Source: Phycisphaerales bacterium (GTDB lineage Bacteria; Planctomycetota; Phycisphaerae; UBA1845). Taken from it: DNA of 64,000 bases. The notes under the pieces are model-generated. The model worked only from the letters and a program-made list of their open reading frames with translations. It made no database searches and was not told where the DNA came from. Of the stretch, positions 5,583 to 32,166 are shown piece after piece. The translations under genes and the position numbers were made by a program. The stretch's first letter is position 1; the number at the start of each line of letters is the position of its first letter. The stretch is taken from positions 1 to 64,000 of the forward strand of contig QZJT01000020.1 of assembly GCA_003597935.1 (NCBI GenBank). The letters run 5' to 3'.

Positions 5583-5633
5583 TCCGCGCGGGCTGAAGCC
5601 CGCGGCTCGCCCACTGAAGCCCGCGGCTCGCCG
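5583..5633. repeat. palindromic repeat, family B (one full and one partial copy)
   Basis: Contains CGCGGGCTGAAGCCCGCG, a hairpin with seven-base arms and a TGAA loop, followed by GCTCGCC, then a second copy lacking its left arm. Same family as at 19093, 28525, 34573, 51413, 51473, 54246 and 54931. It lies between the phosphoesterase start (5510) and the pseudopilin-like gene (5659). Confidence 0.9.
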
Positions 5634-12133: not shown

Positions 12134-14811
12134 CCGAAGACGTCTCGCAGGAGAGCAAACCCACGGAAAAGAAGACGCCCACCCGCGGCCGCAGGAAGAG
12201 CGTGCGGAAGCGCGCGGGCAAGAAGAAGACCGCTGCCGGGGGCGGGATCAACACTGAAGGGACCACCGGCCTTGTGGCCGGCGCGGTCGCGCCGAAGGTA
12301 GACGACCCGGGTCATGGTGCGGCAGGTGCGACGGCCGCCGCTGCCACGCAGGAGGGCAAGAAGAAGACCGGCCGCAAGCGGGCTGCACGTCGCAAGAAGG
12401 TCAGCGGCGAGCCTCAACCCGCGACGAAGGGCGAGACGGCCCAGTCGTCGATGGAATCGTCCAATCCGCCCTCGGCGGCCTCCGATCAGCGGTCGCCGGC
12501 TGCCGGTGGCAGCGATGAAGCGCCCGCTGCCCGGGCCGTCGCCGAGCCAACCGGCGCCGGCGGGAAAGGCGCTGCCGCGGGCGGGGCGTCGAAAGCCCCG
12601 GCGGAGCGCGAAGCGGCGCGCAGCGGACAGCCCGCGCGGGCGGGAGATGCCCGCGTATGGCCACCCTACGACCCGCGGCTGAATGCCGTGCGACCGTCGC
12701 TGAGGCGGCGGATTCGGGGGCGGAGCGGCTCTTCCGGGGAACACCGGCTGGAAGCCGGTGCCACACCAGAAGGCCACCGGTTGGAAGCCGGTGCCACACC
12801 GGAAGGTCGCCGGCTGGAAGCCGGTGCCTCACTGGAAGGTCACCGGTTACAAACCGGTGCCACACCGGACAGCCACCGGCTGGAAGGCGGTGCCACACCC
12901 GTCTCGTCCGACGCACGTTCCGAACCCGGGGTGGGGGGCGAAACGCCCACTGGACGCAAACGGCGCCGGCGCGGGGGGAGGCGTCGCCGCCGTGGGGCCG
13001 GCGCGGCCGCGCCCACGCCGGCGGAGCCGCTCAACGACGAAACCGACGAGGACGATTTCGCCGAGCCATCGGAGGACGTGGACGACGCGGCGCTCTCGGC
13101 GCCGCAGCCGTCCGAGGCCGCCGGTCAAACCGCTCGAACGCCGGCGCGGGCGCCGGAGGTCCTGCCGGGCCGGTCGACGAAGTCGGTCGGCGCCAAGCCG
13201 TTCCTGAAGGGCCGGCAGATGCTGGTCAACATCTCCGGCAGCGAAGAGTGCCGGATCGCGGTCATCCACGACGGGAAGCTCGAAGAACTTTTCATGGAGC
13301 GTCAAAGCTCCGCCTCCCACGTCGGCAACATCTACAAGGGGCGCGTCACCAACGTCGAACCCAGCATTCAGGCGGTGTTCGTCGATTTCGGCCTTCCGCG
13401 CAACGGCTTCCTGCACATCTCCGACGTACACACGCGGTATTTTCCCGACCGCAAGTCGGAGAGCGAGGACGTGGGCCGCAAGATCGCCCGCCGCGACCGG
13501 CCGCCCATCCAGACGTGCCTGCGCCGGGGGCAGGAAGTGATCGTGCAGATCACCAAGGAAGGCGTCGGCACCAAAGGCCCGACGCTGACGACGTATCTGT
13601 CCATCCCGGGCCGATACCTGGTGATGATGCCGGGCATGAGCAAGCTGGGTGTGTCGCGCCGCATCGAGGACGACGCCGTCCGCCGCGAAATGCGCGACAT
13701 CCTGAACGAACTCGTGCTCCCCGACGACATGGGCTTCATCCTGCGGACCGCCGGCATGGGGCAGAACAAGCGCGAACTGCAGCGTGACCTGAACTATCTG
13801 ACGCGGCTGTGGAAGACGATCGAGGAACGCAATGCCAAACTGGCGGCGCCGGTCGAACTCTATCGCGAATCGGACCTGGTCACGCGGACCATCCGCGACG
13901 TGTACACCTCGGATTACGAGTGCATCGTGGTCGATGATCCGCAGGTCTGCGATCAGGTGGAGGAGTTCCTGCGGATCGCCACGCCGCGCACCAAGGGCCA
14001 AGTGGTGCGGTACGACCGGCGGGAGCCGCTCTTCCACCACTACGGGATCGAAGAGGAGATCGCGCGGCTGAATTCGCGGCACGTGCCGCTGCCGTCGGGC
14101 GGATCGCTGGTGATCGACTCGCACGAGGCGATGGTGACGATCGACGTCAACAGCGGCCGCTTTCGATCGCCCGATAACGCGGAAGAGACGGCGCTGCGGA
14201 TCGACCTGGAGGCGGCCGAGGAGATCGCCCGGCAACTGCGCCTGCGCGACCTCGGGGGCCTGATCGTGTGCGACTTCATCGACATGCGCTTGCAGAGCAA
14301 CTGCCGCAAGGTGGTCAATGCGCTGAAGAACGCACTCAAGAAGCACAAGGAGCGGGCCCGGGTGCTGAACATGAGCCCGTTCGGCCTGGTCGAGATCACC
14401 CGCCAGCGGCAGCGGCCGTCGATCATGCGCTCGATCTACCAGGACTGCCCCTGCTGCAAGGGCCGCGGGATGATCAAGACGGCCGAGTCGATGACGCTGG
14501 ACGTGACGCGGTTCATCCAGTTCGCGGCCTATCAGGACGCCGTCTGTTCGGTGCGACTGCGGGTGTCCGACCCGGTGGCGCACGAAGTGCTCAACCGCAA
14601 GCGGGCCCACATTCACCGGATCGAGTCCGAGACGGGCAAGCGGATCGTGATTGAGGGCCGCGACGGCTTGCAGGGCGACCAGATCGAGGTGGAGTGCCTG
14701 GACGAGCGCGGCAACCTGGTGGAGCTGCCGGGCTTCAGCGACCTGAGTCAGCCGGTCGGGGCCGCGCCGGCCGCGGCGGCGTCGCGGGCGGGGCGGTACA
14801 GGCGGCGCTGA
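12088..14811 (+). CDS. ribonuclease E/G family endoribonuclease
   Basis: 907 residues, with GGAGG four bases before the ATG. The first ~370 residues are low-complexity, Lys/Arg/Ala-rich and presumably disordered, unlike E. coli RNase E where the disordered part is C-terminal. The catalytic half follows: S1 domain (HVGNIYKGRV near 410), RNase E core with metal-binding aspartates in DVNSGRF (near 685) and CDFIDM (near 727), and the zinc-link CPCCKG near 786. It should cleave single-stranded RNA in mRNA decay and rRNA/tRNA processing. A five-unit 33-bp tandem repeat (12741-12901) is translated in frame inside the N-terminal extension (about residues 218-271). Confidence 0.93.
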   Translation: MVNSTESTESQRTAVTEDVSQESKPTEKKTPTRGRRKSVRKRAGKKKTAAGGGINTEGTTGLVAGAVAPKVDDPGHGAAGATAAAATQEGKKKTGRKRAARRKKVSGEPQPATKGETAQSSMESSNPPSAASDQRSPAAGGSDEAPAARAVAEPTGAGGKGAAAGGASKAPAEREAARSGQPARAGDARVWPPYDPRLNAVRPSLRRRIRGRSGSSGEHRLEAGATPEGHRLEAGATPEGRRLEAGASLEGHRLQTGATPDSHRLEGGATPVSSDARSEPGVGGETPTGRKRRRRGGRRRRRGAGAAAPTPAEPLNDETDEDDFAEPSEDVDDAALSAPQPSEAAGQTARTPARAPEVLPGRSTKSVGAKPFLKGRQMLVNISGSEECRIAVIHDGKLEELFMERQSSASHVGNIYKGRVTNVEPSIQAVFVDFGLPRNGFLHISDVHTRYFPDRKSESEDVGRKIARRDRPPIQTCLRRGQEVIVQITKEGVGTKGPTLTTYLSIPGRYLVMMPGMSKLGVSRRIEDDAVRREMRDILNELVLPDDMGFILRTAGMGQNKRELQRDLNYLTRLWKTIEERNAKLAAPVELYRESDLVTRTIRDVYTSDYECIVVDDPQVCDQVEEFLRIATPRTKGQVVRYDRREPLFHHYGIEEEIARLNSRHVPLPSGGSLVIDSHEAMVTIDVNSGRFRSPDNAEETALRIDLEAAEEIARQLRLRDLGGLIVCDFIDMRLQSNCRKVVNALKNALKKHKERARVLNMSPFGLVEITRQRQRPSIMRSIYQDCPCCKGRGMIKTAESMTLDVTRFIQFAAYQDAVCSVRLRVSDPVAHEVLNRKRAHIHRIESETGKRIVIEGRDGLQGDQIEVECLDERGNLVELPGFSDLSQPVGAAPAAAASRAGRYRRR
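12741..12901. repeat. five-unit 33-bp palindromic tandem array, family A, inside RNase E/G
   Basis: Five direct copies at a strict 33-base period (hairpins at 12742, 12775, 12808, 12841 and 12874). Each hairpin has eight-base arms around a three-base loop: CACCGGCT-GGA-AGCCGGTG in copy 1 and CACCGGTT-ACA-AACCGGTG in copy 4. The change from C-G to T-A in copy 4 is compensatory; copies 2 and 3 keep pairing through a G-T wobble, and copy 5 has one mismatch. The 11-codon period keeps the RNase E/G frame and encodes HRLEAGATPEG-like units. A single relative lies outside genes at 23809-23827. Confidence 0.92.
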
Positions 14812-24867: not shown

Positions 24868-24955
24868 CGCCCGGAGGGCGCACGATCGTAGCCAGGGACT
24901 TCAGTCCCTGCTGACGCCCCCCCCAAGAGACTCTGCCGCCCGGAGGGCGGACGAA
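24868..24955. repeat. palindrome-rich repeat, family C-like
   Basis: GCCCGGAGGGC, then CAGGGACTTCAGTCCCTG (arms CAGGGACT/AGTCCCTG), then a second GCCCGGAGGGC. Related in layout to the elements at 30865 and 31345. The rest of the 300-base gap between polX and nadC shows no gene. Confidence 0.75.
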
Positions 24956-30161: not shown

Positions 30162-30234
30162 TGCCGGGCCTGCGGGTATGATCTGACGGGCGTGACGTCG
30201 GGCCGCTGTCCAGAATGCGGAGGCATCGCGTGAT
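30162..30234 (+). pseudogene. zinc-ribbon C-terminal remnant
   Basis: Codons from 30162 read CRACGYDLTGVTSGRCPECG and a stop at 30232-30234, the complete zinc ribbon that ends many planctomycete membrane proteins, but the upstream part of the protein is missing and replaced by intergenic repeat. The stop overlaps the GTG start of the next gene. Confidence 0.7.
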
Positions 30235-30804
30235 CCGCAAGGGGTCCATCGCAGTTCTGTCGATCCTGGCCGCGGCGGTGATGGCGTTGTGGGCGGTAAG
30301 CACGTTCGGCGGCGTGGGGTTCGAGTCGCGGCGCGATGTGCCGGCGCCGAACGCGTCGTCGCAGCGCACCACGCTCAACGTCGACCTCGTCAACGGGCTG
30401 CTGATCGTGCGGCGCGAGACGCTTACGCCCGGCCCGATCGTCAGGATCGCGGCGGAAGATTCGTCCTGGACCGTCGACTTCTACGGCCGCGGCGCGCCGC
30501 TGGACCGCGGCGTGGCGACGAAGCCCCCACCGCCTTCACCTCGCTGTACGTGCCCGACTTTCGCTGGATTCCGCGATACACAATCACCACGATCCCGACC
30601 GCGGCCGACGTCTGGGTGAGCGTACCGCTGTATCTCGTCTTTCTGATCTCGGCCGCGTGGCCGCTCACCGCGTTGATCCTCCCTCCGTTGCGCCGCGGCC
30701 TGAGACGGAGGCGCGGCCAGTGCATCGCCTGCGGCTACAACCTCACGGGATTGGCGTCACGCAAGTGTCCGGAATGCGGAGAAGCAGCATGTCTGGCCGA
30801 GTGA
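30230..30804 (+). pseudogene. frameshifted zinc-ribbon membrane protein
   Basis: Starts at a GTG (30230) overlapping the previous stop. The first frame gives a membrane segment (SIAVLSILAAAVMALWAVST) and an extracytoplasmic domain up to about 30520; a second frame then continues coherently with TAFTSLYVPDFRWIPRY, a second membrane segment (VPLYLVFLISAAWPLTAL) and the zinc ribbon CIACGYNLTGLASRKCPECG ending near 30804. The shift falls in or near the C-run at 30525-30530 (AAGCCCCCACC). One inserted or deleted base would restore a protein of about 190 residues. Either a true mutation or a sequencing error. Confidence 0.75.
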
Positions 30805-30890
30805 CAAGCGTCATGCTGATCGTCGCTGCGCTGGCCGCGGCTGTGGCTTGTAAGATGCGCGAGCAGCCCCGGAGGGGCGCAAGTCAATAG
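30789..30890 (+). pseudogene. truncated start of a further small membrane protein
   Basis: An ATG at 30789 inside the end of the previous gene begins MSGRVTSVMLIVAALAAAVACK, a signal- or membrane-type sequence, and runs directly into a family C repeat (from 30865) that supplies the stop at 30888-30890. The rest of the gene is absent, so insertion or recombination at the repeat probably truncated it. Confidence 0.5.
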
Positions 30891-30955
30891 CCAGGGGCGT
30901 AAGCCCCTGGAGAACGGCGACCCCACAAACGAAGCCCTGGAAGGGCGACAGTAAC
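30865..30955. repeat. palindromic element, family C, copy 1
   Basis: CAGCCCCGGAGGGGCG, then AGTCAATAGCCAGGGGCGTAAGCCCCTGG (hairpin CCAGGGGC-GTAA-GCCCCTGG), then GAAGCCCTGGAAGGGCGACAGTA. A copy in opposite orientation is at 31345-31446. Confidence 0.88.
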
Positions 30956-31065
30956 GCCACAAACCCCGTTTCGTCCGCGGTTGGCCGCCGATCGCCGCCT
31001 GATATGATGTGTGCCGTCGTCGTCCGCAGTACCATTCGTAATCTACACGGGGAGGTCCGCGCCTC

Positions 31066-31287
31066 GTGCCTCAATCATACGTTTCGATGCATGTCCACGT
31101 CGTCTTCGCCACGCACAACCGCGCGGTGGCGATCACACCGGAGGTGGGACTGTCCAACCTCGATCAAGTGCGCGGATACATCGCAAACCAGGCCAAACAC
31201 CACCGCACTGCGACGTTCGAAGAAGAGTTCGTTTCGTTCTTGCGGGCACACAACATCGAGTTTGATGAGCGACATCTGCCGCAATGA
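31066..31287 (+). pseudogene. IS200/Y1-type transposase remnant, internally deleted
   Basis: 73 residues from a GTG with GGGGAGG upstream. The N-terminus (SYVSMHVHVVFATHNR...ITPE) matches the first strand of IS200-like TnpA, and the C-terminus (QVRGYIANQAKHHRTATFEEEF...EFDERH) matches its last helices, including the catalytic tyrosine context YIANQ. About 80 residues between, which carry the HUH metal-binding motif in intact members, are missing at the VGLSN junction. It therefore cannot be an active transposase. It lies between oppositely oriented family C palindromes (30865-30955 and 31345-31446). Confidence 0.85.
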
Positions 31288-31344
31288 TCGCGTGATGTGG
31301 TCCTGCCGACATCAATGGGTTTCAGGAAGGCGTCATGCGATGCG

Positions 31345-31446
31345 GTGTCACCGCGCTACTGCCGCCCTTCCAGGGCTCAGACTGCGCGACGGCTGGTACC
31401 AGGGGCTCACGCCCCTGGCTATTGACTACCGCCCCTCCGGGGCTCG
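31345..31446. repeat. palindromic element, family C, copy 2 (inverted)
   Basis: Reverse orientation of copy 1: CTGCCGCCCTTCCAGGGCT, then CCAGGGGCTCACGCCCCTGG followed by CTATTGACT and CCGCCCCTCCGGGGCT. With copy 1 it brackets the transposase remnant. Confidence 0.88.
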
Positions 31447-31512
31447 GAATTCCGGGCGTGCTGAGATTCGTCCGCGCTCGTCCCGATCTGCGCGGCCGCG
31501 ATCCGGCGCGGG

Positions 31513-32166
31513 ATGCACCGCGGCCGCAACGTCGTACTCCTCTGCCTCGCATTAGCCGCCGGCTACGGTGTGGTCGCGTCGGTCACAAGTCTGACGATCT
31601 CAATGATCTCATCACCCACGTTCGGATGGCGCGACGGCCTGGTAACGCCGTCGCGGCACGTCGTGGGCGTCATCTGGCGCGCCTTGCCGTATGGGTTGCA
31701 CGCCTCGCCGGCCGCCGTGCTCCTGAACAACGGTCCTGGCGGTGCGCTGGACTACGACTGGGGCTACGACGAGCATTACCACGCCGCCATCCGCGCCCTG
31801 CGCCGCGCGGCCGCCAACCAGTTGAACCTCCAGCTTTCGCCCGGATTCGCGGTCCATGCGACTTCCCAGCCCTTCGCCCAAGCGGTCGTTCGCATACCGC
31901 TGTGGGCGCCGACCGTGCTGCTGCTGGCCGCCGGACCAGGCACGATGATGGTGTCGGCCAACCGTCGCCGGCGCCGCCGCAGGCAAGGTCGGGGCGTGCG
32001 CTGCGGCTACGACCTGCGCGGATGTGCTGATGGGCGGTGCAGCGAATGTGGGCACGTCGCGCCGGCGGCGGGTGAGGGCTGCGCCCGCGGACGACCGATC
32101 CGGGACGCCAATCGGGAAGGTATCGCTTACCCGACACGCGGCCGCCATGGAACTCCATCGCGATGA
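31513..32166 (+). CDS. zinc-ribbon-tailed membrane protein, degraded ribbon
   Basis: 217 residues from the ATG at 31513. Two membrane segments (VVLLCLALAAGYGVVASVTS near 8-27; IPLWAPTVLLLAAGPGTMMV near 127-148) enclose an extracytoplasmic region, then a basic stretch (RRRRRRRQGRG) and GVRCGYDLRGCADGRCSECG. The first Cys of the usual CxxCGYDLRG is replaced by Gly, so the zinc site has only three ribbon cysteines in register plus one shifted Cys. The ~35 residues after the ribbon are unlike the family and may reflect a lost stop. It is a relative of the broken genes at 30162-30890. Role unknown. Confidence 0.6.
   Translation: MHRGRNVVLLCLALAAGYGVVASVTSLTISMISSPTFGWRDGLVTPSRHVVGVIWRALPYGLHASPAAVLLNNGPGGALDYDWGYDEHYHAAIRALRRAAANQLNLQLSPGFAVHATSQPFAQAVVRIPLWAPTVLLLAAGPGTMMVSANRRRRRRRQGRGVRCGYDLRGCADGRCSECGHVAPAAGEGCARGRPIRDANREGIAYPTRGRHGTPSR

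Follow-up and report, generated by a model that had tools for sequence, protein, structure and literature searches.

A probable decayed Y1 transposon of TnpA subclass 1.2 with inverted REP-like ends in a Phycisphaerales genome

The window analyzed here, a stretch of 64,000 nucleotides from a Phycisphaerales bacterium (contig QZJT01000020.1), contains between positions 30865 and 31446 a Y1 transposase gene without its HUH-bearing middle, placed between two inverted, hairpin-rich ends. We consider this locus to be a decayed autonomous Y1 (HUH, single-strand) transposon with a subclass-1.2 transposase and inverted REP-like ends, both still complete, with a probability of roughly 85%. The remnant itself is a case of ordinary decay; what is new is that subclass 1.2 is associated with REPs and REPINs. 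The genome of the window is a draft of 155 contigs, 77% complete, and counts for the whole genome were obtained from pattern and similarity searches. L- and G-numbers are the locus and genome labels of this analysis. The features of the locus are listed in Table 1.

The palindrome CCAGGGGC-GTAA-GCCCCTGG at 30891–30910 has an inverse counterpart, CCAGGGGC-TCAC-GCCCCTGG, at 31399–31418. The pattern CCAGGGGC-N4-GCCCCTGG, with up to two mismatches allowed, gave two matches in the whole window against 0.09 expected. The original prediction had placed the Y1 gene between two oppositely oriented palindromes; both are present in the correct layout, and the limits it gave for the locus are those of the outer hairpins. 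The inverted copies are, however, longer than first noted: the left arm matches the opposite strand of the right arm with 80% identity over 84 bp (E = 5e-14), and a local alignment extends to about 93 bp. From the outside inward, each end consists of a GC hairpin (GCCCC-GGA-GGGGC), a spacer up to the TCAATAG tag, the 20-nt palindrome, about 22 variable bases, a second GC hairpin (GCCCT-GGA-AGGGC), and a GACAG-like end. In the single-strand DNA fold, the tag and palindrome form the palindrome hairpin (z = -5.05), and all three hairpins appear in the fold of the right end module. When aligned, the left end agrees column by column with the right end, the halves of REPINs from the related genome G096, and the ends of intact Y1 genes.

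Table 1. Features of the Y1 locus and its left neighbor (positions in the window)
Feature	Position	Strand	Basis
33-codon ORF with a neighbor-like start that uses the TAG in the left tag as its stop; a gene probably interrupted by the element	30789–30890	+	Sequence
Left end module, ~85 bp: outer GC hairpin, AATAG tag, palindrome, inner GC hairpin, GACAGT	30865–30952	+	Column-for-column alignment, DNA fold
Outer GC hairpin, left end (GCCCC-GGA-GGGGC)	30866–30878	+	
AATAG tag and 20-nt palindrome CCAGGGGC-GTAA-GCCCCTGG, REP-like core	30886–30910	+	Pattern search, hairpin z = -5.05
Inner GC hairpin, left end (GCCCT-GGA-AGGGC)	30934–30946	+	Alignment, fold
Remnant Y1 transposase of 73 aa starting at GTG, in which the N-terminal 26 aa run in frame into the C-terminal 47 aa	31066–31287	+	Profile, alignment
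Deletion junction Glu26-Val27; ~231 bp absent relative to intact relatives, HUH included	31143–31147	+	Profile coordinates, alignment
Retained tyrosine motif YIANQAKHH (Y---Q--HH, subclass 1.2 type)	31177–31203	+	Alignment
Right end module, inverted relative to the left: inner GC hairpin (31364–31376), palindrome, CTATT tag, outer GC hairpin (31431–31443)	31358–31447	-	80% identity to left
20-nt palindrome and AATAG tag, right end, read on the minus strand	31399–31423	-	Pattern search

The transposase ORF was compared with a profile of 75 intact relatives. It matched positions 2–27 (E = 1e-4) and 104–148 (E = 1e-15) of the 150 profile positions, in order and in the same frame; searches of the 73-aa ORF against Pfam and NCBIfam gave no match. 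About 77 residues (231 bp) are gone, among them the DHVH motif and the larger part of the core, and GYIANQAKHH is kept. The N- and C-terminal pieces both match the same intact proteins, as had been proposed for a gene that lost its middle. In L047, for example, the identities are 12/26 and 25/47, respectively, and against the 25 closest intact proteins they range over 31–54% and 43–61%. The profile and the alignments thus bear out the internal deletion. Among intact proteins, the nearest shares only about 51% identity with the remnant, which counts against the main reading. A microhomology (GGTG) at the deletion junction is no more than a guess.

Because the HUH motif and the core are absent, the 73-aa product is not expected to cut DNA, as judged from related enzymes. 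In all likelihood the window copy is dead; at best, a related enzyme might mobilize it in trans. The reading frame invites another explanation, in which the shortened Y1 protein has been kept to bind the palindromes without cutting and thereby regulates or dampens transposition: the deletion is in frame, the start codon with its upstream GGGAGG and the stop codon are kept, and no further stop or frameshift is present. However, about one in three deletions would be in frame by chance, most of the core that bears the fold of IS200 proteins is gone, and the remnant is a single copy in its own genome. In addition, no other internally deleted Y1 copy was found among 17 damaged or truncated loci of relatives. 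Their lesions are mostly frameshifts or 5' truncations, and only the window locus combined an in-frame internal deletion with two preserved ends. A kept mini-protein is therefore considered improbable.

It had also been predicted that a small neighboring gene is truncated at the left element. The 33-codon ORF does end in the left tag, and it starts like members of the surrounding array; the truncation itself is only probable. This array of tandem small genes (window 30215–32166) has overlapping starts and C-terminal CxxC...CPECG motifs, and the element is located inside it. The ORF fits insertion into the array or rearrangement within it. The window copy may have arrived by insertion, although no empty site was found, which counts against the main reading.

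In Table 1 of Quentin et al. (2018; PMC6006769), TnpA-Y1 subclass 1.2 is described by DH[IV]H, WQ, YIKNQKEHH, and a length of 148 aa; it is listed as "no" for REPs and as occurring in Cyanobacteria and Bacteroidetes. The Y---Q--HH motif, YIANQAKHH in the window copy, is found in 72/75 and 75/76 of the intact relatives in two sets. DH[VIL]H is found in 62/75 and 64/76, and WQxGY in 72/75 and 76/76, the second set being partly selected on the WQxGY motif; both motifs are lost in the window copy. The relatives have median lengths of 150 and 149 aa, typically 148–150 aa. By motifs and length, these proteins match subclass 1.2. The published "no REP" entry, which is a reported property and not part of the sequence definition, looks incomplete.

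Intact relatives align to solved IS200-type transposases across the HUH and Tyr regions, and they pass the IS200 model NF033573, which the remnant does not. With the RAYT model NF047646 they score 22–27 bits against a cut-off of 80, and the Y---NP motif is present in 0 of 151 proteins. A classical RAYT (class 2 TnpA-REP) is ruled out by the absence of Y---NP and by the RAYT score below the cut-off, and TnpA-Y1 class 3 (Y----Q, CnGA foot) by Y---Q--HH together with the NTAG foot. The locus had been described as a RAYT with its REP pair; the layout is right, whereas the protein is strictly not of the classical RAYT type. The layout is that of a REPtron, a Y1 gene flanked by inverted tagged palindromes. 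Since the sequence fits the subclass but the arrangement does not fit its "no REP" entry, and since the proteins score as IS200, the arrangement is called REPtron/REPIN-like here, not RAYT.

To what extent inverted ends are general was examined in two sets. The first has 74 loci, namely the window and 73 intact homologues that have both flanks in 100 related genomes; the second has 69 intact loci on GTDB contigs. A few loci are common to both (e.g., L038/L146, L037/L129, and L033/L125), and the published cyanobacterial subclass-1.2 members lie outside these samples. Flanks were counted as inverted at a similarity score of at least 30. Random placements in the window (n = 1,441) served as the control, because a cross-locus flank control is too strict when palindrome families are shared between loci. 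Inverted flanks were found in 122 of the 143 loci (142 intact loci and the window), compared with 1.9% of random placements; the values for the two sets were 64/74 in related genomes and 58/69 in GTDB contigs. In the GTDB set, they were found in Planctomycetota (16/17), Verrucomicrobiota (20/22), Acidobacteriota (5/6), Bacteroidota (10/16), and other phyla (7/8). A tagged palindrome was present in both flanks, with the tag outward, in 26/73 and 34/69 intact loci, and the opposite orientation occurred in 1/74 and 1/69 loci. The commonest tags were ATAG, GTAG, and TTAG. It should be mentioned that the window palindromes are located about 155 bp upstream of the gene, whereas in relatives the median distance between the nearest upstream tag and the start of the matched gene region is about 82 bp; this counts against the reading of the locus as a decayed element.

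One module runs throughout the alignment, from the window ends to the ends of intact genes (L113, L058, and L084), three solo copies, and gene-less halves. The same AGTCAATAG-tagged module is carried by the intact genes L038 and L113; the palindromes are thus linked to Y1 genes, in agreement with the original prediction, and the result named in advance as its refutation did not occur. Similarity of the flanks is correlated with similarity of the proteins (143 loci, rho 0.40; the largest of 200 permutations gave 0.11), which shows an association, not independent co-evolution events, as the permutation was simple and the sequences are related. These observations bear on the idea that a REPIN formed or landed around an already dead Y1 gene, with ends and gene unrelated. 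REP pairs are indeed dispersed in these genomes. Nevertheless, intact relatives as a rule have ends that are paired, inverted, and tagged outward, and the similarity of the flanks tracks that of the protein, so that this explanation seems even less probable than the mini-protein.

The genome of the window contains three intact Y1 genes, on contigs 52, 45, and 37, with palindromic repeats in the surrounding sequence. Clear inverted flanks were observed for the contig-52 and contig-45 genes; the flanks of the contig-37 gene had an inverted score of 19, below the threshold, and a direct-repeat score of 39. A search for full-length Y1 genes between the same palindromes had been suggested, and inverted palindromes do surround intact genes of this genome and of relatives, some of them of the same type. 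The contig-45 gene is flanked by GTAG-CCAGGGGC-TTCA-GCCCCTGG, and this element differs from the window ends in the tag, the loop, and the outer hairpin. The genome has 14 CCAGGGGC sites, most of which carry the tag and outer hairpin of the contig-45 family. The window subfamily, with its TCAATAG tag, has only three other copies (contigs 24, 30, and 146), all solo and degenerate. The locus had been proposed as the decayed source of a palindrome family. That it is decayed stands; that it was a source holds only weakly, because most CCAGGGGC sites belong to the contig-45 element and the window subfamily has just these three degenerate copies. The contig-52 family has 32 sites with at most one mismatch and none in the reversed control. 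Several of them pair up as gene-less inverted pairs, 260–290 bp apart. A long doublet of this family, L244 (contig 45:30800-31900), has about 560 bp between its tags and no recognizable Y1 inside.

Gene-less doublets resembling REPINs are dispersed in this genome and in G096, G076, and G047. The pattern TAGCCNNGGGCNNNNGCCCNNGG occurs in 35 of the 51 genomes that have a Y1 match and in 9 of the 49 that have none (Fisher p = 4e-7), with almost no matches in the reversed control. In G096, G076, and G047, many of these matches form pairs about 100–180 bp apart, which have the full mirror architecture and no gene. Strict mirror doublets are represented by L224-L231 in G096, L232-L238 in G076, and L239-L241 in G047, and up to 80-odd tagged palindromes occur per genome. 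REPINs are thus found in relatives and in the contig-52 family, whereas the window subfamily has solo copies only. The least probable explanation, that the flanks are transcription terminators or mRNA-stability hairpins with no tie to transposition, would account for GC-rich hairpins adjoining the gene, but the left hairpin is upstream of the gene, there is no T-run, the flanks are 84-bp mirror copies whose unpaired tag is conserved, and these modules are also found as gene-less pairs.

No Y1 residues were found inside the gene-less doublets or L244, so that the data do not show an origin of REPINs by gradual internal deletion. The window copy is what a deletion step toward a gene-less pair would look like. 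Units of gene and ends were also found in several copies. G071 has four copies of the gene with both ends (L042, L070, L077, and L089), 91–94% identical over about 740 bp. On the right side, the similarity of every copy stops at the outer hairpin; on the left, a longer stretch of flank is common to two of the copies only. G017 has four copies of gene and ends that are 85–90% identical over about 700 bp. To judge from these sequences, the G071 unit looks recently active, unlike classical RAYTs.

How an autonomous transposon of this type would work may be proposed by comparison with IS200/IS605 and TnpA-REP. The transposase of a live copy would recognize each end by its tagged hairpin in single-stranded form. 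The tag would select the cleavage site, and the tyrosine would cut next to the hairpin; the DNA between the ends would then be moved or copied. Gene-less, REPIN-like pairs of ends might be mobilized in trans by the same enzyme. In the window copy, the in-frame deletion of about 231 bp removed the metal-binding HUH motif and the core of the fold.

A broader model, whose chances we regard as about even, is that subclass-1.2 Y1 transposases, so far described as neither IS nor associated with REPs, drive their own REP/REPIN system in Planctomycetota, Verrucomicrobiota, Acidobacteriota, and part of Bacteroidota. The unit of gene and ends would still transpose as a whole, unlike that of classical RAYTs; an IS200-like element would give rise to REPINs once its gene is lost, and the window copy would be a partly emptied element. 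If REP/REPIN ends and multiplication as a unit are indeed combined, subclass 1.2 is a candidate for an intermediate stage between IS200 insertion sequences and RAYT/REPIN systems. This bears on how REPINs originated, as well as the domesticated RAYT genes responsible for their spread. As apparently live units, gene-less pairs, and dead copies are present in related genomes, the step from transposon to REPIN is testable. The intact relatives, until now listed as hairpin-less, carry such hairpins in several bacterial phyla.

Among known systems, IS200/IS605 elements (subclass 1.1; ISDra2 and IS608) share the transposase family, the motifs, and subterminal hairpins with the present elements. The ends of IS200 are not known to be inverted copies of each other, whereas the two ends here are. 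REPtrons or RAYTs with REPINs or BIMEs (PMC2817692, PMC3116915, PMC6006769, PMC8266576) share the bracketing by inverted tagged palindromes, the dispersed palindrome pairs, and palindrome types specific to the transposase. They differ in that the present elements have Y---Q--HH, an IS200-type score, a tag that is mostly ATAG, GTAG, or TTAG, multi-hairpin ends, and, in some genomes, several near-identical units of gene and ends; for tnpA-REP, no evidence of mobility has been reported (PMC8266576, PMC8049555). The published subclass 1.2 (PMC6006769) agrees in the length of 148–150 aa, DH[VI]H, WQ, Y---Q--HH, low copy number, and presence in Bacteroidetes. It differs in the inverted flanks, which are seen here in most members from Planctomycetota, Verrucomicrobiota, and Acidobacteriota and in 10/16 from Bacteroidota. 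TIRtrons/TIRYTs (Di Nocera et al. 2013, PMC3733652) likewise have a Y1 gene between long terminal inverted repeats and moderate genomic repetition, but the ends here hold tagged palindromes, and TIRYTs have for the most part been assigned to subclass 2.1/2.2. The palindromes by themselves are no novelty, since GTAG palindromes and Y1 genes with flanking repeats were already reported in the PVC group (PMC3733652). A literature search, largely without subscription journals, found no paper tying such palindromes to subclass 1.2.

Other palindromes are present elsewhere in the window. A solitary, slightly degenerate GTAGC-CAGGGACTTCAGTCCCTG at 24893–24910 resembles the contig-45 palindrome family. 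Another family, the repeated palindrome CGCGGGCTGAAGCCCGCG with GCTCGC beside it, was found at 5587, 51417, 51477, 54251, and 54934. The CACCGGTTNNNAACCGGTGCCACA palindromes at 12742–12859 belong to a family whose arrays also lie next to Y1-like genes on contigs 52 and 140 (L001 and L005).
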